From NCBI RefSeq assembly GCF_004011835.1, contig NZ_RKLN01000003.1, forward strand, positions 186,001 through 250,000: DNA of 64,000 nucleotides, read 5' to 3'. Positions within the stretch are counted from its first letter, which is position 1, and each line of letters begins with the position of its first letter. The translations under genes and the position numbers were made by a program. Source of the stretch: Rhodococcus spongiicola (lineage in GTDB: Bacteria; Actinomycetota; Actinomycetes; Mycobacteriales; Mycobacteriaceae). Shown one piece after another: positions 40,796 to 52,317 of the stretch. The notes under the pieces were generated by a model. It did not search any database. It was not told the origin of the DNA and worked only from the letters and a program-made list of their open reading frames with translations.

Positions 40796-41875
40796 GTGGC
40801 GAATGTGACTGTGGCAGACGTTGCACCGAATCCCCGACCCGAGCGCAGCATCGACATCTTCCGTCGGTCTGCGGCGTGGCTCGACGAGAACCTACCGCCC
40901 GGATGGTCGATGTCCTCGGACCGCCCCCGCTCCCCCGCCGCCCCGAACCGCCTGCTGATCACCGCGCCCGACGGCGAATCGGTCTCCTACGCGATCATCG
41001 CCCGCAAAGGCGTGCTCAGCGGCGACGTCGCGCGCATTGCCACCGAATTGTCGGACAGTGACCGTGGATTCGTGTGTGCTCACTACCTTTCGGATCCGGT
41101 ACGGAGACAACTGGACGGCCACGGCATCTCGTATGCGGACGCCACCGGCAACGTGAGTCTTCTGGCGACGCGGCCCACGATCTGGGTGCGCAACCGCGGC
41201 GCCGACGCAGACCCCTGGCGAGGCCCCGGCCGACCGTCCGGGGTGCTCACAGGCGAGCCCTCCGAACGTGTCGTGCGCGCGCTCGCGGACTATGTCGGCG
41301 AGATGTCGGTCCCGGAACTCATCAGGCTCTCGGGAACGTCGACCGGTGCGGCGTACCGAGTGGTCGAGGTGCTGTACGAGCGCGAATTGCTGACACGGCT
41401 GCCGCGCGGCCCCATCACCGATGTCCGGTGGCCGCACATGCTGCGCGCGTGGGCCGCCGATCGTAAACCGTTCCCGACCAGAGGGTTCGCCGCACCCGGC
41501 GGTCTCGACGAACTACTGGCTCGACTCGAGGCAACCGGCGGCGATCCGGGGTACGCAATCACCGGAATCGGCGCGACGGACTACGCCGCTCCCGCGGTGC
41601 TCGAGTTGTACGCGGACGACGTCGACGCATTCGCTTCCGCGATGGATCTGCGGCCGGTGGACGGCGGAGCCGACGTCGTGGTCGCAACCCCGTGGTCAGC
41701 GGTGGTTTTCGAACGCATGCAGTATCGCAACGGGCTGCGCTGCGTCGCGCCCGCCCACGCGTACGCAGATCTCGCCGCGGGCCCGTTTCGGCACCCGGAC
41801 GCTGCCGAGTACCTACTGACGACGTTGACTGCGGACGAGCCGGCGTGGCGCCGTCCCGTCCGCCGTGCAGGATGA
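40796..41875 (+). CDS. AbiEi-like winged-helix protein (type IV antitoxin/regulator-like)
   Basis: A 359-residue protein resembling AbiEi-family antitoxins. It has a central winged-helix stretch (MSVPELIRLSGTSTGAAYRV, then LYERELLTRLPRGPITDVRW) and a C-terminal domain ending with the family-like RCVAPAHAYADLAAG and PDAAEYLLTTL. No AbiEii nucleotidyltransferase toxin follows; 49 bases downstream a Wadjet operon begins. A second GTG at 40805 has a TATTGT box seven bases upstream and may be the true leaderless start. It may regulate the jet operon or be an orphan. Confidence 0.6.
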   Translation: MANVTVADVAPNPRPERSIDIFRRSAAWLDENLPPGWSMSSDRPRSPAAPNRLLITAPDGESVSYAIIARKGVLSGDVARIATELSDSDRGFVCAHYLSDPVRRQLDGHGISYADATGNVSLLATRPTIWVRNRGADADPWRGPGRPSGVLTGEPSERVVRALADYVGEMSVPELIRLSGTSTGAAYRVVEVLYERELLTRLPRGPITDVRWPHMLRAWAADRKPFPTRGFAAPGGLDELLARLEATGGDPGYAITGIGATDYAAPAVLELYADDVDAFASAMDLRPVDGGADVVVATPWSAVVFERMQYRNGLRCVAPAHAYADLAAGPFRHPDAAEYLLTTLTADEPAWRRPVRRAG

Positions 41876-41881
41876 CCAGCC

Positions 41882-41895
41882 CGAGCGTTCGCTCG
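41882..41895. promoter_or_regulatory. Inverted repeat at the -35 position of jetA
   Basis: CGAGCG-TT-CGCTCG, six-base arms and a two-base spacer, centred about 37 bases before the inferred jetA transcription start. It is placed where a repressor would block RNA polymerase; it could equally be a weak hairpin ending the upstream gene. Confidence 0.45.
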
Positions 41896-41912
41896 TGCGC
41901 CCGCTGACGTCC

Positions 41913-41918
41913 TAGGCT
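41913..41918 (+). promoter_or_regulatory. Putative -10 box of leaderless jetA
   Basis: TAGGCT six bases before the GTG at 41925, the same spacing as for cobG, dop and the PAC2 gene. Confidence 0.6.
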
Positions 41919-41924
41919 GACACG

Positions 41925-43436
41925 GTGAGCGATTCAGGTGACACGCGGCTGTCAGCGGACGCCGATTTCGCCGTGCACGAGGACCGGTTACGGTTGTTCT
42001 CCTTCACAACCGCGGAGAAGCGTGCCGAGTACCTCTGGGTGCTGCGCGCGTTCGACAACGCCCGAGCGAACTACGTTGTGCTGCTGCACGCGGGCGATGC
42101 GGCGGACATCCTCACCAGAATCGCCGGCGACGACGCCGCCGCAACCCTGACGTCAGCCGAGATCACCCCCCTCCTCGAACAACTGCACTCGTGGGGCGTT
42201 CTCGAACGCAGCTACGACGGGAGCCGGGTCGCCACGCTTGCCGAATACCGGAACCGGCACTTCGTATACCAGTTCAGTCAGGCCGGCTATCTGGCGTTCC
42301 GAGCGGTCGAAGATGTTCTGGGGGCCCGCCTCGAAGACGCGACCCTGTCCCGGCTCGCATTGCCGGATCTGCTCGCCGACCTCGAGGAACTCGCCGAGGC
42401 CAACCGGCGTGCGGACGGTGACCTGATCTACCGCAAGCTCGCCCGTCTCGATTCCACGCTCACCGATATGGCCGAACGCGCCGCGCAGTTCTACCTGATG
42501 CTCGGCGATTTGGTTCGCACCACGGAGGTCACGCCCGAGGCGTTCCTCGCCCACAAGGACGCGTTGCTCAGCCACATGCGGGAGTTCAGTTCGGATCTCG
42601 CACGGTACGCGCCGAGACTCGAGGCCGCGATCGAGATCGTGGAGGCGACCGGAGTCGACTCGCTGATCGCTCGGGCCGCCGCGAGTGACGAACGCGTCTT
42701 CCTCTCTCGCGAGCACCGCGAGTCCGACTGGCGCACACGCTGGTCGGGCCTGACGCAGTGGTTCGTCGCCGCGTCCGCTCCGAGCGAGTCCGATCGACTG
42801 CGGGAAGGCACGATGAGCGCCGTCGCGGCCGTGCTCTCGCTCCTGCGCCGGGTAACCGAGGCCCGCCGGGGCGGCGTGAGCCGCGAGAGTCAACTCCGGC
42901 ACCTTGCGGGATGGTTCGCCGCGGCCCCCACGGAGGACTTGGCGCACGCGCTGTACCAACTCGTCTTCGACCTCGGCCGCCCACGGCACCTGTCGATGGT
43001 CCACCCGGACGCCGACATCATCCCCGAATCGCGGTCCTGGTGGGACGCGACACCGGTGGAGGTCTCCCGCACGCTGGCGGAAACGGGGCGTCCAGCCTCG
43101 CCAGGCGTGCCGGCGCGTGTCCAGCGCGACGAGGCCAGTGTCCGGCGACTCCGCCGGGAACAACTCGCCGCGCAGCGGGCGCGCGCCACGGCGGCGGCCT
43201 CGCTCGCTGCCGAGGGCGCCTACGATCGGGTGCTCGACGCGCAGGAGACCGACGTGCTGCTCAGCTTGCTCAGTGCCGCGCTCACCGCGCGGGTTCCGGT
43301 CGGCGGCACCGTCCCGAGCTCGACCGGCTCGGAGAACGGCGTCCGGCTGACACTGCGGCCGCATGCGGAATCCACGGTCGTCCAAACCTCCCGCGGGAAA
43401 ATCCATCTCGATGGAATGCAGGTGACCGTGCAGTGA
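41925..43436 (+). CDS. jetA: Wadjet system protein JetA, TIGR02677/DUF2397 type
   Basis: A 503-residue protein that fits TIGR02677 (DUF2397), the kleisin-like JetA of one Wadjet subtype (type III by my recollection). Seen: FSFTTAEKRAEYLWVLRAFD, NYVVLLHAGDAADIL, RNRHFVYQFSQAGYLAFRAV and a long helical middle. A C-terminal strand pair ends KIHLDGMQVTVQ. In this family JetA bridges the SMC-like JetC dimer and binds JetB. The stop overlaps the jetB GTG by four bases. The start is leaderless. Confidence 0.85.
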   Translation: MSDSGDTRLSADADFAVHEDRLRLFSFTTAEKRAEYLWVLRAFDNARANYVVLLHAGDAADILTRIAGDDAAATLTSAEITPLLEQLHSWGVLERSYDGSRVATLAEYRNRHFVYQFSQAGYLAFRAVEDVLGARLEDATLSRLALPDLLADLEELAEANRRADGDLIYRKLARLDSTLTDMAERAAQFYLMLGDLVRTTEVTPEAFLAHKDALLSHMREFSSDLARYAPRLEAAIEIVEATGVDSLIARAAASDERVFLSREHRESDWRTRWSGLTQWFVAASAPSESDRLREGTMSAVAAVLSLLRRVTEARRGGVSRESQLRHLAGWFAAAPTEDLAHALYQLVFDLGRPRHLSMVHPDADIIPESRSWWDATPVEVSRTLAETGRPASPGVPARVQRDEASVRRLRREQLAAQRARATAAASLAAEGAYDRVLDAQETDVLLSLLSAALTARVPVGGTVPSSTGSENGVRLTLRPHAESTVVQTSRGKIHLDGMQVTVQ

Positions 43437-44845
43437 GGGCCCGCACCGTCTCACCGCTCGAGATCGACACATACCAGCGTGCCGCTCGGGTCATTTTGTC
43501 GAATCATCTGGTGACGCAGACCTATCCAGACCGCCTCGCACTTCCGCTGCTCCGCAGGTGGGCCACCGAACTGCGCGAGGACCTGCTCGAGTTGTTCGGG
43601 TATCGCTTCGAGGTCACCGAGACGACGGCACGGCTGTTCACGGTGCCCGACCGCCTGGTCCCCGACACCCCCGCACGAACTCCGAGTGACCGGACTTTCG
43701 ACCGGCACCGCTACGCCTACCTCGCGTTGACGCTCGCAGCACTCGGACGGGCTGGGAACCAGATCACCTTGTCGGAGTTGGCCGACCACGTCGCCACCGA
43801 AGCCGCACAGGTCCCGGGAGTGACGCTGTCGACCGAGCGGGCGGCGGACCGGGACGCGTTCGTCGATGCGGTCGCCTGGCTCGCAGCCCGTGGCGCGATC
43901 GTGCTCGCCGACGGCGATGCCGGCGGGTGGGCGTCGAATCCCGATGCGGACGAAGCGCTCTACGACATCGACCGCTCGGTGGTCATCGCGCTGTTCCGGC
44001 CGCCACGTGTCCTGCAGCACCTGACGTCGGTACGGTCCCTCCTTGCGGTCGAGAAGGGTCCGCTCCAGGAGGACACGATCGGGCATCGCCCCGCCGACCC
44101 ACGCGAGACCGTGCGACGTATGCGACGTGCACTCGTCGAACGACCCGTGGTGTACGCGGACGAACTGACCGACGACGAACGGCTCCAGCTCGCGCTGCCC
44201 CGCACGGCGGGCGCCGTGGAGGATCTGACAGGTCTGGTGGCCGAGCGGCGGGCCGAGGGCGTCGCGATGATCGACCCGTCCGGCCGGATGTCCGACATAC
44301 GGTTCCCCAGCACCGGGACAATCTCACAGGTCGCGCTGCTGCTGGCCGGGGAAGTGGCGGACCGTGTTCTCGACCCCGACGCACCGCGGCTACAGCACCG
44401 GCCGCTCCCCGACTCCAGCCAGTTGGAGCTGGCCACCCAACTCGACGCCGCGATCCCCACCGCAGGGATCTTCGAGCAACTCGCCGAGGATCCAGCGGCC
44501 GTGTCCGCCGCATCGCCCCCCGTCGAGAATGCCGCCGAGCCCGCCCGTTACCCGCTGCTCGACGACGCCTGGCTGGCCGACGCAGTGGGCGGACTCGCCC
44601 GGCAATTCGGAAGGACCTTCGCTGCGCAGTGGCAGGCCGACCACGCAGGATTGCGACGCAACGCCATCGCGCTGCTCGATCGACTCGACCTGATCAGGGA
44701 AGTCGACGACGGTGTCCTGGCGCTTCCGGCCATCGCCCGTTTCCGTGGTGTCGTGGTCAACATCCGGCACCGCAACGCACAGTCCGATCTGTTCCACGAA
44801 CCGGTCACCGGCCGAACCGACGGCAATCGACCGGTAGAGAAGTAG
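43433..44845 (+). CDS. jetB: Wadjet system protein JetB, TIGR02678/DUF2398 type
   Basis: A 470-residue protein fitting TIGR02678 (DUF2398), the winged-helix KITE-like partner of JetA. Seen: LALPLLRRWATELREDLLEL, then DRHRYAYLALTLAALGRAGN, ITLSELADHV, and the C-terminal DAWLADAVGGLARQFGRTFA. Its GTG start lies within the jetA stop (GTGA), and jetC begins 13 bases after its stop, so the three genes form one operon. Confidence 0.85.
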   Translation: MRARTVSPLEIDTYQRAARVILSNHLVTQTYPDRLALPLLRRWATELREDLLELFGYRFEVTETTARLFTVPDRLVPDTPARTPSDRTFDRHRYAYLALTLAALGRAGNQITLSELADHVATEAAQVPGVTLSTERAADRDAFVDAVAWLAARGAIVLADGDAGGWASNPDADEALYDIDRSVVIALFRPPRVLQHLTSVRSLLAVEKGPLQEDTIGHRPADPRETVRRMRRALVERPVVYADELTDDERLQLALPRTAGAVEDLTGLVAERRAEGVAMIDPSGRMSDIRFPSTGTISQVALLLAGEVADRVLDPDAPRLQHRPLPDSSQLELATQLDAAIPTAGIFEQLAEDPAAVSAASPPVENAAEPARYPLLDDAWLADAVGGLARQFGRTFAAQWQADHAGLRRNAIALLDRLDLIREVDDGVLALPAIARFRGVVVNIRHRNAQSDLFHEPVTGRTDGNRPVEK

Positions 44846-44858
44846 GGGCACCGTTCGC

Positions 44859-47800
44859 ATGACACACGCGCGTTTCAAGCCGACCCGCGCCGGGATCATC
44901 AACCTCTGGGACTACCGGGACCAGGAGTTCACGTTCGCCGACGGCCGCCTCGTATTGCGCGGGCCCAACGGCTCAGGAAAGACCAAGGCCCTCGAGGTGC
45001 TGTTTCCGTTCGTGCTCGACGGTCGTATCGAGCCTCGCCGCCTCAACCCGTTCGCGGGCGAGGAGCGGACGATGAAGTCGAATCTGCTTTACCGAGGCCA
45101 GGACTCGGCTCATTCGTACGTCTGGATGGAATTCAGTCGCGGACCGGCGGACGACCCCGAAGCGGTCACCGTTGGTGTCGGGATGCGCGCCACCCGGCAC
45201 AACGACAAGGTCACCCGCTGGTACTTCGTCGCCGACGGTCGCGTGGGTATCGACTTCTCGCTGCTCGGCGGCGACGACCGACCGCTCACCAAGAAGCAAC
45301 TCGCCGAGCAGATCGGCAGCGACACCATCACCGACCGCCCCATCGACTACCGCGGAGCGATCGACGCCCGTCTGTTCGGGCTCGGATCACAGCGCTACGA
45401 CCAGTTGATCAACTTGATCCTCACGCTACGACGCCCACAGCTGGCCAAGAATCTGGATCCGAAAGGCCTGTCGCAGGCCCTCACCGATGGTCTGCGCCCG
45501 CTCGACGATCAGCTCGTCCTCGAGGCGGCCCGCTCCTTCAGTGACCTCGAGGAGGTGGGCCGGGCACTCGAGGGACTCACGGCCGCCGACCAGGCGGCAC
45601 AGAGTTTCGTGACGGTGTACTCGAGGTACCTGGCTCAGCAGGCACGAACGGATGTCGAGCAGGTCGCTCGTCGGCTCGAATCGGTGGACCGTGCGACGAC
45701 GATCCTGGACGAGACGCTGTCACTGCAGGCATCGAGGCAGCAGGAACGCGTTCTCGCCGAAGACCGGTTCACCGCGGCTGAGCGCGCTCTCGAAGAAGCC
45801 CGCGCCGACCTCGACACCCTCCAGCGATCGGGCGCCTACGAGGGCAAGCAACAGCTCGACGATCTCGCGACCGCCGTCGAGCAGCTGAAACTCTCGACCA
45901 CACAGCAGGCCGACAAGGCACGCAAGGCCCAGGCGACCCTCGAGCAGCGAATCGATGAGGCTTCCCGCGCGGCGGACGCGGTCGGCCGCGCGAACGCGGC
46001 GCTGGTGCGCGCCGAGGAGGAACTGGCCGAAGCGGCTGAGCAGGCGGGAATCGTGTGGGCACCTCTGCATGAGACCGCGCGATCGGACCAGATCACGACC
46101 GCCGTCCGGGGTCACGCCGAGGAACGTGACGGCGACCTGCGGGCTGTACGCTTCGCACTCGCGGCCGTCGAGAAGGCCGGCACGGAACGTGATCGTGCCG
46201 GCCGTGCCGCCGACAGGAGCCGTGATCTCCTCGAAGCGAGCCAGGCCATGGTTGCCGAGGCCGGGTCGTCCGTCGAGCTCGCCCGCGCGGACTGCGTGGC
46301 CGCCCTGCGGAGTTGGTGGAGCGAACACTCCGACGACTACCGATCGGCGGGGGTGACCACAGCCCTGTTCACCGCGCTCGACGCGGCCCTCGCGCAGGTC
46401 GGCGAGGCCGACTCCCCCAGCTTGACGACCGTACTGCACGAGCACACGCAGTCCGCACTCGACGAACAACGCGCCCTGTGCCGCAGTGCGCAGGCCGACC
46501 AGTCCTCGAGCACCGAACGGATCGCCGAGCTGCAGGCCGACCGAAAGCGGGTCGCGGACGAACACGACGATGCTCCAGCAGGTTTCGCATTCCGTGCGGG
46601 CGACCGCAGTGGTCTCCCCGGGGCCCCACTGTGGCGACTGGTGCGATTCCGCGACGGCGTGGAGCCCTCCGTCGCCGCCGGCGTCGAATCGGCTCTGGCC
46701 GCTGCGAACCTTCTCGACGCCTGGGTCCTAGGTGGCGACGGACCGGAGCCACGCGTGACCTCCGAGCAGTTTCTCGCTCCGCTACCGGAGCGCCGGCGGC
46801 CTCGAGGACCGACGCTGGCAGACGTTCTCGAGGCCGAACCCGGTGCCGACGTCCCGGAGTCCGCGGTGTCGGCGATCCTCGCATCGGTGGCGCTCGTTCA
46901 CGACGGTGCCGACACCCCCGACACCGTCGGGGTGGGTGTGGACGGCCGTTTCTGGCAGGGCATCCAGCGCGGCCGCCACGTCAAGGCGGACGCCGAGTAC
47001 ATCGGATCGACGGCCCGCGAACGTCGTCGTGCCCAGCGCCTGGACGAACTCGACCGGGAAATCGCGTCTGTCGAGAGTGCTCTCGCCGCAGCCCGCGACG
47101 CCGAGGCTCAGGCCGCTACGGTCATCGATCGGTTCGCAAGCGCCTCCGAGGCGTTGCCGCGCACGGCGGGCATACTCGCCGCAATCAAGAGGCTGTCGGA
47201 GGCGGCCGGTGCCCTGCGCACCCGTTCGGAGTCGACCGCGAGCGCCGGCGAGGAACTTGATCGGGCGATCGCGGACCACACGGCAAGGGAGAAGCAGCTT
47301 CGCGTCGTGGCCGCCGAACACCGCACCCCCCACCGACCCCGCGAGATCGACACTCTCGCTGCGGTGATCCGACACTTCGAAAGCCTTGGGGAGCAGTTGC
47401 TGCGATGCCGGCGTGAGCACGACAAGGAACTCGAATACCACCGTGAGGCAGCAGACCGGCTCGACGAAGCCCGTGGCAACACCGAGGAGTTCGTCGAGGA
47501 AGCCGCTATCGCGGAGGAGAACTACGGGCAACAACTCTGCCGCCTCGACACCCTCCGGGATACGCTGGGAGCGAGCTCCGAACAGATCGACGCGGATCCC
47601 GAGAAGGCCCGGGCTCGAATCGAGACGTGCAAGACCGAACAGCGCACGGCACGAAAGACCTACGATGCTGCCGTCGAAGAAATCGGCAAGGCGGAGGGAG
47701 CACACACCGCCGCCGTCGACGCGCTCCTCAGCGCGCTGACCGAAACCCGGACGGACGCAGACCGACTCGCACCGTATGCGCACCGCGATCTGCTACACCT

Positions 47801-49052
47801 GCTCGGCGTCGAGACCGACCATTCGTGGCCACAGAGCTCCGCAGCCTGGATGACTCCCGAGCAACTCGTGTATCGAATGACGACCGAGGGAGATCGGCGC
47901 ACCCCGATCCTGCCGCCCGAGGTCGATGCACTCTACCGTGCTGTGGACGCCGCCACGGCATCGGTGAGGACCAGTGAGAGCGCGCGGAAGTCGACACGCT
48001 CGGCGCTCACGGCTGCATTGCAGGATTTCGACGCCGATCTGGCCGCGTCGGGCCAGGGCTACCGACTGCAGTGGGACGCACCGGACGGGCTCACCGTCGT
48101 GTCGGTGCAGGACGATCACGGCTACTCGTCAATTGGCGAGTTCGCATCACGGATCCGGGCCGCACGCCTGGATCAGGAAATGCTGCTGACGGATTCGGAA
48201 CGACGAATTCTCGAGGATGCGCTCCTGACCGGTCTCGCCCAGCAGATCCACGAGCGCACCGCCGACGCGCGTGAGTTGATCGGGCAGATGGGCGCCGAGA
48301 TGCGGGAGCGGCGCATGTCGTCGGGCAGCACGATCGGCGTCCATTGGGTGCTCGCTGACAACCTCGACGACAGTTCTCGGGCGGTCTCGAAACTGCTGGA
48401 GCGGGATCCGTCGGCACTGAGCGCAGACGAATTGGCTACCATCCGCGCACATTTCGCATCCCGGGTACGTCTGGCCCGTGCAGCCCATCCCGAGCGGTCC
48501 TACCCGGAGATTCTCGCTGCCGCGCTCGACTACCGACGCTGGCGGGTGTTCTCGTTCACCCTGGTCGGCGGCGACGGCAGCGAGGACCGGCTGACCGTGG
48601 CTCGGCACAGTGCGCTGTCGGGCGGTGAGCAGTCGGTATCTCTGCACCTGCCGCTCTTCGCCGCCGCACACGTCATGCTGTCGTCAGCAGATCCGCACTC
48701 ACCACGGCTACTCGGGCTTGACGAGGCATTCGCCGGCGTCGACGACAACGGGCGCAGTGAACTCCTGGGACTGAGTGTCCAGTTCGATTTGGACCTGTTC
48801 ATGACCGGATACGACCTGTGGATCACGTATGCCGGTGTGCCGGGATGTGCGCATTACGACCTCGCGCACTCGACCGCTGAACACACTGTCAGCGCGGCCC
48901 TGCTCGTGTGGTCCGGGGGAGAACTCCTCGCTGAACACGCCGGCGGCAGCCTGTCCCGCGCGCTCGGCTCACCGATGCGACGACGAGTGCCTGCCGCGTC
49001 CGAGGCTGAGTTCGAATTCGCCGAGGTCCAGATGACCGGGGGCGGGCAGTGA
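44859..49052 (+). CDS. jetC: Wadjet SMC-like ATPase JetC, TIGR02680 type
   Basis: A 1397-residue SMC/Rad50-like ATPase. The N-terminal half-head has Walker A GPNGSGKTK (35-43) after FADGRLVLR. Long coiled coils (about 230-480 and 700-1000) flank a hinge-like region. The C-terminal half-head has the ABC signature ALSGGEQSVSLHLPLFA (about 1253) and Walker B LLGLDEAFAGVDD (about 1286). In Wadjet systems JetC dimers extrude DNA loops and sense small circles so that JetD can cut plasmids. All ATPase motifs look intact, yet no jetD follows. Confidence 0.88.
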   Translation: MTHARFKPTRAGIINLWDYRDQEFTFADGRLVLRGPNGSGKTKALEVLFPFVLDGRIEPRRLNPFAGEERTMKSNLLYRGQDSAHSYVWMEFSRGPADDPEAVTVGVGMRATRHNDKVTRWYFVADGRVGIDFSLLGGDDRPLTKKQLAEQIGSDTITDRPIDYRGAIDARLFGLGSQRYDQLINLILTLRRPQLAKNLDPKGLSQALTDGLRPLDDQLVLEAARSFSDLEEVGRALEGLTAADQAAQSFVTVYSRYLAQQARTDVEQVARRLESVDRATTILDETLSLQASRQQERVLAEDRFTAAERALEEARADLDTLQRSGAYEGKQQLDDLATAVEQLKLSTTQQADKARKAQATLEQRIDEASRAADAVGRANAALVRAEEELAEAAEQAGIVWAPLHETARSDQITTAVRGHAEERDGDLRAVRFALAAVEKAGTERDRAGRAADRSRDLLEASQAMVAEAGSSVELARADCVAALRSWWSEHSDDYRSAGVTTALFTALDAALAQVGEADSPSLTTVLHEHTQSALDEQRALCRSAQADQSSSTERIAELQADRKRVADEHDDAPAGFAFRAGDRSGLPGAPLWRLVRFRDGVEPSVAAGVESALAAANLLDAWVLGGDGPEPRVTSEQFLAPLPERRRPRGPTLADVLEAEPGADVPESAVSAILASVALVHDGADTPDTVGVGVDGRFWQGIQRGRHVKADAEYIGSTARERRRAQRLDELDREIASVESALAAARDAEAQAATVIDRFASASEALPRTAGILAAIKRLSEAAGALRTRSESTASAGEELDRAIADHTAREKQLRVVAAEHRTPHRPREIDTLAAVIRHFESLGEQLLRCRREHDKELEYHREAADRLDEARGNTEEFVEEAAIAEENYGQQLCRLDTLRDTLGASSEQIDADPEKARARIETCKTEQRTARKTYDAAVEEIGKAEGAHTAAVDALLSALTETRTDADRLAPYAHRDLLHLLGVETDHSWPQSSAAWMTPEQLVYRMTTEGDRRTPILPPEVDALYRAVDAATASVRTSESARKSTRSALTAALQDFDADLAASGQGYRLQWDAPDGLTVVSVQDDHGYSSIGEFASRIRAARLDQEMLLTDSERRILEDALLTGLAQQIHERTADARELIGQMGAEMRERRMSSGSTIGVHWVLADNLDDSSRAVSKLLERDPSALSADELATIRAHFASRVRLARAAHPERSYPEILAAALDYRRWRVFSFTLVGGDGSEDRLTVARHSALSGGEQSVSLHLPLFAAAHVMLSSADPHSPRLLGLDEAFAGVDDNGRSELLGLSVQFDLDLFMTGYDLWITYAGVPGCAHYDLAHSTAEHTVSAALLVWSGGELLAEHAGGSLSRALGSPMRRRVPAASEAEFEFAEVQMTGGGQ

Positions 49053-49099
49053 GTGCCGCGTCACACCATCGCCGAATGGTGACGCAGAACACGATATAG
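49049..49099 (+). pseudogene. 16-codon reading frame overlapping the jetC stop, possible jetD vestige
   Basis: A GTG overlaps the jetC stop in a GTGA arrangement, exactly like the jetA-jetB junction, and opens a frame reading VSAASHHRRMVTQNTI before a TAG. This is where jetD (TIGR02679/DUF2399) normally starts. No jetD homology is recognised in it or in the next 180 bases, so it is either a trace of a deleted gene or chance. Confidence 0.3.
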
Positions 49100-49160
49100 C
49101 CCGACTGTGAGGCTCGTCCGTTTTGCTTGAAACTTCCAACCTTTGCGCTGTTATCTGGTT

Positions 49161-49177
49161 GTGACCTTGCCGTGACC
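49161..49177 (+). promoter_or_regulatory. Direct repeat resembling an MtrA-type site upstream of the GH19 gene
   Basis: GTGACC at 49161-49166 and 49172-49177, 11 bases apart (one helical turn). Direct GTNAC repeats with this spacing are bound by the actinobacterial response regulator MtrA, which controls cell-wall hydrolases; assignment is by motif memory only. A perfect six-base stem (GGCTGC/GCAGCC, 49240-49258) lies in the leader before the start codon. Confidence 0.35.
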
Positions 49178-49278
49178 ACCGGGTGATGCAACGGTCGGAA
49201 CAACGTCGTCTCCCGACTCTACCGGTGCTCACGTTCGAAGGCTGCCGCGTCTGCAGCCCGAAAGCTGGAGCACGAACC

Positions 49279-50124
49279 ATGCACGAGTCGCGTACAACCT
49301 CGTTCGGCAACCAATCGTCGACCTCCCGGTCTCGGTTCAGTTCACGAGCCCGCTTCACGGGCGTGGCGTCCCTCGCCGCCGCCGGACTCTGGATCGGGAA
49401 CGTCGTGCTCGGACCATTCGCGTCCAGCCAAGCCGAGTCCCTGCCGGCCGCGCAGGCGGCACCGGCCCAGTTCCTCGACACGAAGAACCTGGCGAAGGCC
49501 CTGGACATGCCCGACTCCGCGCCCGGAGCGGCTCCCGCCACCCAGGTCGACCCCGCGCCACCACCGCCACCCCCACCGCCGCCGCCCCCTCCGAATCCGG
49601 CGTCGGTGACGCTGGACGAACTCGTGCGCATCATCCCGCATGTGGCGTCCGCGAAGCTGGCCGAGTACGTCACGCCGCTCAACGAAGCTCTCACGATGGC
49701 GACAATCGATACTCCCGTCCGCAAAGCCGCCTTCATCGCGCAGCTCGTCGTCGAGTCGGACTCGTTCCGCACATTCGAGGAATACGCATCCGGTCGCGCT
49801 TACGAGGGGCGTGCCGATCTCGGCAACGTGGTCCCCGGCGACGGAGTTCGATACAAGGGGCGCGGAGCGATTCAGGTCACCGGCCGATACAACTACCAGA
49901 GCGTCAGCAAGGATCTCGGGATCGACTTCGTCGCCAATCCCGAGCTGATGGCCACGCCGGAGAACGCATTCGACACCGCGGCGTGGTACTGGCAGTCTCG
50001 CAACCTCAACGCCGTCTCGGACACCGGAAGCATCGAGAGAGTTTCGCGAATCGTCAACGGTGGCACGCACGGGATGTCCAAGCGAGTGGCCAGCTTCAAG
50101 CGGGCTCTCGCCGTTCTCGGCTAG
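49279..50124 (+). CDS. Secreted GH19-type chitinase/lysozyme-like hydrolase
   Basis: A 281-residue exported protein. Residues 1-50 form a signal or anchor (basic, Ser/Arg-rich, then SLAAAGLWIGNVVLG). Residues 51-115 are an extracellular linker containing a run of about 12 prolines. The catalytic domain (about 118-281) resembles glycoside hydrolase family 19: KAAFIAQLVVESDSFRTFEE (general-acid Glu near 157), GDGVRYKGRGAIQVTGRYNY, FDTAAWYWQSRNLN and IVNGGTHGMSKR. It may cut peptidoglycan or chitin. The ATG at 49279 has a CTGGAG site; the frame to 49183 lacks a signal start. Confidence 0.82.
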   Translation: MHESRTTSFGNQSSTSRSRFSSRARFTGVASLAAAGLWIGNVVLGPFASSQAESLPAAQAAPAQFLDTKNLAKALDMPDSAPGAAPATQVDPAPPPPPPPPPPPPNPASVTLDELVRIIPHVASAKLAEYVTPLNEALTMATIDTPVRKAAFIAQLVVESDSFRTFEEYASGRAYEGRADLGNVVPGDGVRYKGRGAIQVTGRYNYQSVSKDLGIDFVANPELMATPENAFDTAAWYWQSRNLNAVSDTGSIERVSRIVNGGTHGMSKRVASFKRALAVLG

Positions 50125-50250: not shown

Positions 50251-50832
50251 TCAGAACGGATGATTGTCCGGATTATCGGACCAGGCGGCGTAGGCGGCTG
50301 CGCCGAGGTCCGGTCGGAGCTGTTCGATCTTGACGGACCGCTCCGTGAACGGTTTGGTGAAGTCCTCGTATTGAATCGCGTCGTCGAAACCGAGGCTGCG
50401 GGTAGCGGCGAGGTCGCTCGCGAAGTAGGCGGCGTCGAGACGCGCCCAATAGATCGCGCTCATGCACATCAAGCACGGCATGCCCGTGGTGTACATCTCC
50501 ATCCCCACCAGCATCCGGGCACGCTGGGGGAACCGATCTTGCGTCCCCTCCGGGGCCGGTACCATCGCCAGGGTCGATTGGTTGCGGTGCTCGACGGCGA
50601 TGGTCGGCGCTTCCGGGTTGAGAACTTGCACCGCCTTGCGTATGGCCTCGATCTCAGCGTGCGCGGTGACGTCGCCGGTCAGCAGTACCCGATTCTGTCC
50701 CTGCGCAACAATCTCGCCGCCGCGGGCGATCACGGCCCCGAACGGCCCACCCCAGGCGTTGCGGACCGACTCGATGGCCAGACGACAGGCCTCGTTCATG
50801 AGTTCGTCCGGTGCCAGTTCGTCCGGTGCCAT
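50251..50832 (-). CDS. Cytidine/guanine deaminase-superfamily protein
   Basis: A 193-residue zinc deaminase. Zinc motif 1 is TAHAEIEAIRKA (His and catalytic Glu near residue 57); motif 2 is GMPCLMCMSAIYWARLD (two Cys near 118). The N-terminal FGAVIARGGEIVAQGQNRVL and the closing segments resemble guanine deaminase/nucleoside deaminases. The two zinc motifs are about 60 residues apart, roughly twice the usual distance, because of an insert containing EHRNQSTLAMVPAPEGTQDR. The start at 50832 includes a duplicated APDEL; a TACTAT box lies at 50877-50882. It faces the GH19 gene and is divergent from the GNAT-AAA gene. Confidence 0.82.
   Translation of the reverse strand: MAPDELAPDELMNEACRLAIESVRNAWGGPFGAVIARGGEIVAQGQNRVLLTGDVTAHAEIEAIRKAVQVLNPEAPTIAVEHRNQSTLAMVPAPEGTQDRFPQRARMLVGMEMYTTGMPCLMCMSAIYWARLDAAYFASDLAATRSLGFDDAIQYEDFTKPFTERSVKIEQLRPDLGAAAYAAWSDNPDNHPF
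50801..50830 (-). repeat. 15-bp exact tandem duplication at the deaminase N-terminus
   Basis: AGTTCGTCCGGTGCC occurs twice in direct succession (50801-50815, 50816-50830). It encodes the doubled APDEL after the start methionine and keeps the frame. Confidence 0.85.
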
Positions 50833-51039
50833 CGCCCGTTCGCCTCCACAGCGTCGCAGTGCGGCCCCCAGCGCGAATAGTACCGAGCTCCCACCCGACC
50901 CAGCACCCGTTCGCTGGCCGGCCCACGCAACCGACCGCGCCGGCGACCGCGTTCGGGTACGCGTCCTGACGCCATGACTGACAGCACGTTGATCGCGGTG
51001 TCTACTGGAAGGGTCCGACGATCGGATAGAGGTGAGCAG

Positions 51040-52317
51040 ATGCCGGTGTGGCGATTGCGAGACTTCCAGAACGACGATCTGGACCAAGCGATCGAGATCT
51101 GGGATCAGAGCCGAGCGCCCGGCTCCCCCGAACCGGTGTTCACTCTTGCCGAGGTGGTGGCCGCCGCCCGGTCGGGCGCACCCTCTGTCGTCGCGGTCGT
51201 GGGCAACGAACTCGTGGGCATGGCGGTGGCCCAGGTACACGGCGAACGAGCATGGATTCTGCTGGTGGCGCTCGGTGGCCGGTGGCGCAATCGCGGCATC
51301 GGCAGCGACCTGCTCGCCCATCTGCAGCGCCGACTGAGCGCTTCCGGTGTGCGCCGGATCTCTGCTGTTCTCCCCGAGGGCGCCACCGGATCGGCCGCGC
51401 TCGAACACTCCGGATATGTGCGCCGCGACGGACTGGTCTACTACGAACTGCTCGAACCACCCGGCCCCGACCAGACTCTGCTCAGCGAACTCGGCGGACG
51501 CCTGATGCCGATCGGCCTCTGGAACAAGATGGCCGGGATGGAGTCCGTGAAGGACATCATCGAGCGACGCATCGTGTTGCCGCTCGAGCACCCGAACGTC
51601 GCCGACCGATACGGGGTCAAACCACCCAAGGCCGTGATCTTGTTCGGGCCACCGGGAACCGGCAAGACCAGCTTTGCAAAGGCCATCGCATCCCGGCTCG
51701 AATGGCCGTTCGTGGAACTGTTCCCGTCTCGCCTCGCGGCAACGGAACCCGGTGGTCTCGCAGCCGCCCTCAGGGAGGTGTTCGCGGACCTCGCCGAACT
51801 CGACGAGGTTGTGCTGTTCATCGATGAGGTCGAAGAAATCGCCAGCACCCGAACCGGACTCGCAACGAACCCGGCACACGGCGTCACCAATGAACTACTC
51901 AAACTGATACCGACGTTCCGTGAAAGCGAGCATCGCCTTCTGGTGTGCGCGACGAACGCCGTGCACTCGTTGGACTCGGCGTTCCTGCGCCCGGGGCGGT
52001 TCGACTACACCATCCCGGTGGGTCCACCCGACGCGCCCGCCCGACGCGCGGTGTGGAAGCGATACCTGGGCAATGCGGCGGAACACGTCGATCTCGACCG
52101 ATTGGTCGCCGCCAGTGAGCGATTCACGCCTGCCGACATCGAGTTTGCTGCCCGGAAGGGATCCCAGGCCGCGTTCGAACGCGACGTCCCCGACAACTCG
52201 GGTCGACCGGCGGCCACCGACGACTATCTCGCCGCGATTGGCGAGACCCGACCGACGCTGACGTCCGAACTCCTCAGCGAGTTCGAGGAAGACCGCAACC
52301 TGTTCACGCGGTTGTGA
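51040..52317 (+). CDS. GNAT acetyltransferase - AAA+ ATPase fusion protein
   Basis: A 425-residue two-domain protein. Residues 1-145 form a GNAT acetyltransferase-like domain (WRLRDFQNDDLDQAIEIWDQ; acetyl-CoA loop GRWRNRGIGSDLL near 80-92; GSAALEHSGYVRRDGLVYYE). Residues 165-425 form an AAA+ module: Walker A ILFGPPGTGKTSFAKA (about 200), Walker B VVLFIDEVEEIAS (about 255), sensor 1 LVCATNAVHSLD, arginine finger LRPGRFDYTIPVGPP. No protease domain follows. The ATG at 51040 is chosen for GAGGTGA four bases upstream; the frame is open to 50974. The role is unknown; the fusion suggests ATP-driven remodelling coupled to acetylation. Confidence 0.85.
   Translation: MPVWRLRDFQNDDLDQAIEIWDQSRAPGSPEPVFTLAEVVAAARSGAPSVVAVVGNELVGMAVAQVHGERAWILLVALGGRWRNRGIGSDLLAHLQRRLSASGVRRISAVLPEGATGSAALEHSGYVRRDGLVYYELLEPPGPDQTLLSELGGRLMPIGLWNKMAGMESVKDIIERRIVLPLEHPNVADRYGVKPPKAVILFGPPGTGKTSFAKAIASRLEWPFVELFPSRLAATEPGGLAAALREVFADLAELDEVVLFIDEVEEIASTRTGLATNPAHGVTNELLKLIPTFRESEHRLLVCATNAVHSLDSAFLRPGRFDYTIPVGPPDAPARRAVWKRYLGNAAEHVDLDRLVAASERFTPADIEFAARKGSQAAFERDVPDNSGRPAATDDYLAAIGETRPTLTSELLSEFEEDRNLFTRL

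Follow-up and report, generated by a model that had tools for sequence, protein, structure and literature searches.

A type II Wadjet-like jetABC operon with no jetD found in Rhodococcus spongiicola

In Wadjet systems, DNA is extruded by JetABC and is cut by JetD once extrusion of a circle is complete, according to two papers (PMC10586767, PMC12647877). PADLOC demands the full set of four Wadjet genes and places MukFEB-type cases in its 'other' category (PMC9252829), and in a survey of 97 Rhodococcus genomes, 73% were reported to carry Wadjet together with a restriction-modification system plus Eleos or PD-T4-3 (PMC10482375). Here we describe a type II Wadjet-like operon, jetA-jetB-jetC, for which no jetD was found. 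The operon lies in a stretch of 64,000 nucleotides of Rhodococcus spongiicola DNA (assembly GCF_004011835.1, contig NZ_RKLN01000003.1, positions 186,001 to 250,000 of the forward strand), which is called the window below and supplies the coordinates used throughout.

The jetABC operon and the search for jetD

The operon and the slot that follows it are made up as follows.

41925 to 43436, + strand: jetA, 503 amino acids, kleisin-like subunit, type II (TIGR02677, DUF2397)
43433 to 44845, + strand: jetB, 470 amino acids, KITE-like subunit (TIGR02678, DUF2398)
44859 to 49052, + strand: jetC, 1397 amino acids, SMC ATPase (TIGR02680)
49053 to 49278, no strand: slot after jetC, filled by jetD in JetD-bearing relatives (locus comparison)

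A preliminary description of the window had assigned the three genes to TIGR02677, TIGR02678 and TIGR02680, and all three were found to score above the curated cut-offs of these families. JetA (GTG start codon) reached 234.8 bits with TIGR02677 (cut-off 165.85) and an expectation value (E) of 3e-142 with DUF2397. JetB, whose GTG start overlaps the jetA stop by 4 bases and which was scanned as a longer open reading frame (ORF) beginning at 42758, reached 135.5 bits with TIGR02678 (cut-off 124.65) and E 9e-66 with DUF2398, and JetC, which starts with ATG after a gap of 13 bases, reached 736 bits with TIGR02680 (cut-off 462.85). The PADLOC assignments were JetA2, JetB2 and JetC2, which is type II. 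The ATPase motifs of JetC were intact, as had been described, with Walker A (GPNGSGKT), signature (LSGGEQ) and Walker B (LDEAF) all present. The refuting case considered at the outset, that the proteins belong to another SMC family, did not hold, the best matches of JetC being TIGR02680 and JetC2. Among PDB chains, JetC matched the chain named JetC in 9qe0 (9qe0_A, E 3.7e-72) and the JetC chain of 9qe1, and JetA matched the chain named JetA in 9qe0 (9qe0_E, E 5e-12) and the JetA chain of 9qe1; going by a reference in PMC12647877, these entries appear to be the Neobacillus vireti type II complex. For JetB this search yielded only a weak similarity, to an ABC-transporter ATPase (E 0.02), and a search of the same kind with the JetD of a relative returned nothing at E 1.

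No jetD similarity was found in the slot at 49053 to 49278. In the whole R. spongiicola assembly (3.97 Mb, 29 contigs, completeness estimate 100%), with all first-look candidates scored, TIGR02679, PF09664 and PF09983 gave no match at E 1, and neither JetD_C nor DUF2399 was found, while the JetD-model search gave matches in Bacillus subtilis and Corynebacterium glutamicum as controls. A custom profile built from 12 JetD proteins matched 4 of 4 JetD-bearing controls in a panel of 31 genomes (E below 1e-159) and none of the 27 panel genomes that had been picked as lacking jetD at the locus; moreover, it matched nothing at E 1 in any of the 14 genomes that make up the window's genus group, R. spongiicola included. 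TIGR02679 likewise gave no match at E 0.01 in any of these 14 genomes, among which there was no positive; the positive control was the same model, which matched 27 of 251 genomes of the family at E 0.001 with at most 7 candidates scored per genome. These findings extend the absence of jetD noted at the locus to a genome-wide negative with TIGR02679, DUF2399, JetD_C and the custom profile. The operon thus has the JetA, JetB and JetC of a type II Wadjet and not its JetD Toprim nuclease (TIGR02679/DUF2399), and it has the composition of a three-gene SMC-kleisin-KITE operon without a nuclease gene, as in MksBEF.

JetD in related operons

A JetC match was found in 106 of the 251 family genomes, two candidates being scored per genome so that further copies may escape. 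By hand reading, a JetC of the same clade (50% identity or more) was present in 98 of the 251, and 8 had a diverged relative alone. In these 98 clade genomes (hand tally), jetD adjoined jetC in 19, a TIGR02679 match lay elsewhere in 5, in 4 of which it stood beside a second, diverged Jet operon, and none was found in 74, of which 41 were also negative with the custom profile. The genus group, which takes in Rhodococcus xishaensis, Prescottella equi and P. defluvii, had a jetC match in all 14 genomes, one of them frame-broken, and the nearest relative of the window's JetC was that of R. xishaensis (91% identity). Class-wide, TIGR02680 was found in 86 of 394 genomes at E 1e-60, and 19 of the 86 were without a TIGR02679 match at E 1e-5 (4 of 5 in the family and 15 of 81 outside it; hand count per genome, at most 4 candidates scored, genomes with two operons not separated). 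The lack of JetD thus looks exceptional class-wide but usual within this clade.

The slot after jetC was compared in 101 distinct clade JetC rows, 19 of them with jetD, taken from 114 JetC rows that included 13 diverged ones and remained after 19 duplicates and 7 short rows had been left out. The gene mshC converges on jetC, and in the 17 JetD-bearing loci with mshC in reach it lay 1224 to 1285 base pairs (bp) after jetC. The 30 loci without jetD and with mshC in reach had a gap of 7 to 57 bp in 10 cases and of 551 to 7251 bp in 20; in the window the gap was 3373 bp and held a GH19 gene, which lies 3' of jetC in the window's group. The other 52 rows without jetD, the Nocardia loci among them, fall outside this comparison because mshC was not seen near jetC there. 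Contig ends were too near jetC to judge in rows L125 and L127, which were scored as lacking jetD; the contigs of L149 and L164 also end early, and their genomes were negative with the custom profile. The 19 clade jetD genes started between 20 bases inside jetC and 3 bases past it. Comparison of the locus in related strains, which had been proposed as a check, found jetD in the slot of some relatives and not in most carriers of the operon, and we read jetD as an optional plug-in for this slot. In Rhodococcus kyotonense KB10, jetC and mshC were 55 bp apart with no jetD, and in JCM 23211 they were 1224 bp apart with jetD; KB10 was placed among JetD-bearing relatives such as JCM 23211 in the JetC tree. 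Close relatives thus carry an orthologous motor at a single chromosomal position, some with the nuclease and some without, which offers natural paired strains.

The 19 clade JetDs clustered together to the exclusion of 7 outgroup JetDs (support 100/100). JetD and JetC distances were correlated with r 0.98 over 19 rows, which was reached in 0 of 2000 permutations. Strict loss-only (Dollo) counting required 15 jetD losses, and parsimony on the full tree with the outgroup gave 8 changes. A two-state likelihood model without the outgroup gave a probability of 0.06 for jetD presence at the ingroup root; with the outgroup, presence was 0.48 at the deeper root, and the likelihood ratio for presence at the ingroup root was 0.007. 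The approximately unbiased (AU) test rejected the grouping of the Antrihabitans stalactiti JetD with Rhodococcoides JetDs (p 0.002), in conflict with the JetC tree. The correlation of JetC and mshC distances (r 0.80, 47 rows) is in keeping with a largely vertical descent of jetC. Because the two-state model and the AU test oppose a loss-only history, a single loss is claimed and not many, R. kyotonense KB10 being the one clear case. The history of jetD probably mixes losses and gains, and whichever history holds, most of the clade has the JetABC motor but not JetD.

In L078, L088 and L148, perfect inverted repeats whose stems measure 19 to 20 bases were seen between the converging jetC and mshC, where they resemble a two-way terminator. 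Perfect hairpins of at least 9 bases were present after jetC in 10 of 97 loci, all without jetD; the window was not one of them. Eight diverged type II-like JetABC loci in the family (L054, L056, L057, L059, L060, L061, L063 and L064) were approximately 30% identical to the window's JetC; no TIGR02679 match was found in their genomes, and ten ORFs beside five of them were metabolic, regulatory, transport or helicase genes.

Selection and possible roles of JetABC

Walker A (GPNGSGKT) was invariant in 101 of 101 distinct JetC rows, LSGG was kept in 100, the remaining row being cut by a contig end, and LDEAF was present in all 8 rows inspected for it. The ratio of nonsynonymous to synonymous substitution rates (dN/dS), estimated by the simple Nei-Gojobori method from non-independent pairs over 86% identical, was 0.018 to 0.166 for JetC in pairs without jetD and 0.054 to 0.075 in JetD-bearing pairs. 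Between the window and R. xishaensis it was 0.101, 0.153, 0.144 and 0.086 for JetA, JetB, JetC and mshC, respectively. The highest single value was 0.391 for JetB in one pair without jetD, and JetA gave 0.26 to 0.34 in three JetD-bearing pairs, all involving L094. Since the motifs are kept and dN/dS is far below 1, purifying selection on jetABC persists without jetD, perhaps slightly relaxed, which answers the question of continued selection raised in the preliminary description. The jetC frame was intact in 120 of 121 rows of one set, and two further broken rows were L156 (JetD-bearing, 950-contig assembly) and L165 (a diverged relative). In P. defluvii SampleD3_15 (L150, L166; assembly 79% complete, 5% contaminated), jetC was frame-broken, possibly by a sequencing error.

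Because the operon is kept by selection though no cutter gene was found, its job probably does not involve DNA cutting. On balance we favour the reading that jetABC is a type II Wadjet motor working without the JetD nuclease, in a non-nucleolytic role. By extension from Wadjet biochemistry, JetABC would bind DNA, hydrolyse ATP and extrude loops as other Wadjet motors do. Without JetD the extruder would load and move but would not cut, and since no cutting would follow the full extrusion of a circle, the selected role would be non-nucleolytic. It would most likely be chromosome organisation or segregation beside canonical Smc-ScpAB; a canonical ScpA is encoded in the R. spongiicola genome.

Several observations weigh against this reading. 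A same-strand ORF of at least 150 amino acids began between 25 bases before and 100 bases after the jetC stop in 32 of 78 loci without jetD (those with at least 1300 bp downstream of jetC), and a minority of these ORFs was scanned; in such GC-rich DNA many of them are probably not genes. The JetC/mshC distance ratio had a median of 2.05 in rows without jetD compared to 1.56 in JetD-bearing rows (non-independent pairs), which fits a partial relaxation. Residues common to JetD-bearing rows and rarer elsewhere exceeded control sets in JetC (32 compared to 1 to 12) and JetB (9 compared to 0 to 7), with 1 compared to 0 to 4 in JetA, the JetD-bearing and control sets differing in diversity, which affects this comparison of docking surfaces. 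Moreover, JetABC might work with a nuclease from another part of the genome, one that is unrelated to JetD or has diverged far from it. This would agree with an operon selected as though active and with the displaced TIGR02679 matches in 5 of the 98 clade genomes, 4 of them accompanying a second operon; we consider it unlikely in view of the 74 genomes without a TIGR02679 match, the 41 of these that are also negative with the custom profile, the lack of JetD_C and DUF2399 in R. spongiicola and the lack of a common replacement gene at the locus.

The boldest alternative is that JetABC acts against plasmids without cutting: it would entrap and compact circular DNA, leading to silencing or loss, a mode of action that has been put forward for eukaryotic Smc5/6. 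A motor kept where the cutter was not found would suit such silencing, and the review PMC10586767 states that Smc5/6 could compact circular DNA and block viral gene expression; by this analogy silencing may occur, though we regard it as rather improbable. That the operon is a decaying remnant of a defence system, one of three options in the preliminary description, was rejected as very unlikely: the raised JetC/mshC ratio and the one frame-broken P. defluvii assembly would fit decay, but the frames are intact in nearly all relatives examined, dN/dS is far below 1, and jetC is present throughout the genus group. A JetD borrowed from elsewhere, the second option, found no support as regards known JetD families in the R. 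spongiicola genome. The third, a non-cutting loop-extruding condensin with a different partner, is favoured in its non-cutting part, whereas no conserved partner was found at the locus by clustering of limited sensitivity. A wider proposal, which we put forward only tentatively, concerns Nocardia, the Prescottella group and many Rhodococcus: there, JetABC would have been retained over long periods as a second condensin that lacks a nuclease, or as a silencer that acts on circular DNA without cutting it, and jetD would be an optional module that has repeatedly left or entered the slot, switching the motor between genome organisation and plasmid destruction.

Neighbouring genes and known systems

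Two genes flank the operon.

40796 to 41875, + strand: 359-amino-acid protein upstream of jetA, probable winged-helix regulator (weak HTH_IclR match)
49183 to 50124, + strand: GH19 (class I chitinase-like) gene, outside the system (Pfam, neighbourhood comparison)

The operon had been taken to begin at 40796, but this is the start of the separate 359-amino-acid gene, and jetA begins at 41925. The 226 bases reported between jetC and the GH19 gene are correct if the gap is measured from the jetC stop up to the first ATG (49279) in the GH19 ORF; an in-frame GTG lies earlier, at 49183. The 359-amino-acid protein matched HTH_IclR at E 0.00033, under the Pfam cut-off. Its AlphaFold model was poor (mean predicted local distance difference test score 57.4), and a Foldseek search returned nothing at E 0.001; its best-ranked hits were chains of CRP, MarR and MYST-acetyltransferase proteins. 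It was rejected as a JetD substitute because its relatives (60% coverage or more, 23 of 101 loci) sit in loci with and without jetD alike, the JetD-bearing L084 and L153 included.

A displaced JetD upstream of jetA was also rejected, DUF2399 being found in none of ten candidate ORFs scanned in Pfam; five of these were read, of which three were actin/Hsp70-like by eye (no Pfam hit), one was like a helix-turn-helix (HTH) regulator and one was a fatty-acid desaturase. Another gene after jetC as substitute fared no better: in nine downstream ORFs, DUF2399 was found in the JetD-bearing control alone. ORF clustering over 101 loci found no replacement partner common to the loci without jetD; its sensitivity was incomplete, JetB being recovered as a group in 69 of the 101 loci and JetD in 16 of the 19 that carry it. 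The commonest same-strand neighbour exclusive to loci without jetD was a gene of approximately 410 amino acids upstream of jetA (28 loci). This gene (e.g., L051, L116), an HTH-type regulator as judged from one member, L051, occupies the place held by the 359-amino-acid winged-helix-like protein in the Prescottella and R. erythropolis groups.

Elsewhere in the window, a deaminase-domain ORF (50251 to 51879, - strand) overlaps in antisense a GNAT plus AAA-ATPase ORF (50974 to 52317, + strand). Because the deaminase match is confined to about 50422 to 50805, the region 50251 to 52317 probably holds a divergent gene pair whose second member is an acetyltransferase-AAA fusion. In the R. spongiicola genome, a 1422-amino-acid frame (L001, C23:71700-74906) showed a weak resemblance to the N-terminal region of BREX BrxC (E 4.4e-10, well short of the cut-off).

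Among described systems, type II Wadjet (JetABCD2; PDB 9qe0/9qe1) has the same JetA, JetB and JetC families, A-B-C order, tight spacing and ATPase motifs; it differs in having jetD, which was found neither in the R. spongiicola locus nor in the genome. The jetABCD operons of Rhodococcoides, Rhodococcus tibetensis and other family members have orthologous jetABC genes, beside mshC in 17 of 19 JetD-bearing loci. In contrast to the window, jetD stands directly 3' of jetC in these relatives, and the Toprim part of its product carries CEN and DFD motifs, which we take to be catalytic. A DefenseFinder table in PMC12915292 lists Wadjet_II with three proteins for R. erythropolis NI86/21, reported as a defence system; the number agrees with the window, the comparison being by count alone. 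The locus of R. erythropolis NBRC 15567 (L148) has jetABC and no jetD. Wadjet survey counts such as that for Rhodococcus may include loci without jetD, and caution is due, as three-gene loci may be scored as Wadjet II in defence surveys even where the cutter is absent.

No report of type II Wadjet operons without jetD was found in the literature searched, most subscription papers lying outside its scope. Pseudomonas aeruginosa MksBEF is likewise a nuclease-free SMC-kleisin-KITE complex; its SMC presumably belongs to a different subfamily from the R. spongiicola JetC. The window's JetC matched PADLOC JetC1 weakly (E 2.8e-10) and TIGR02680/JetC2 strongly, and judged by these three models it is not of the MksB/MukB-type sequence family. 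Loss of JetD has already been proposed as the origin of Pseudomonas MksBEF, and a type II operon without JetD adds to that pattern.

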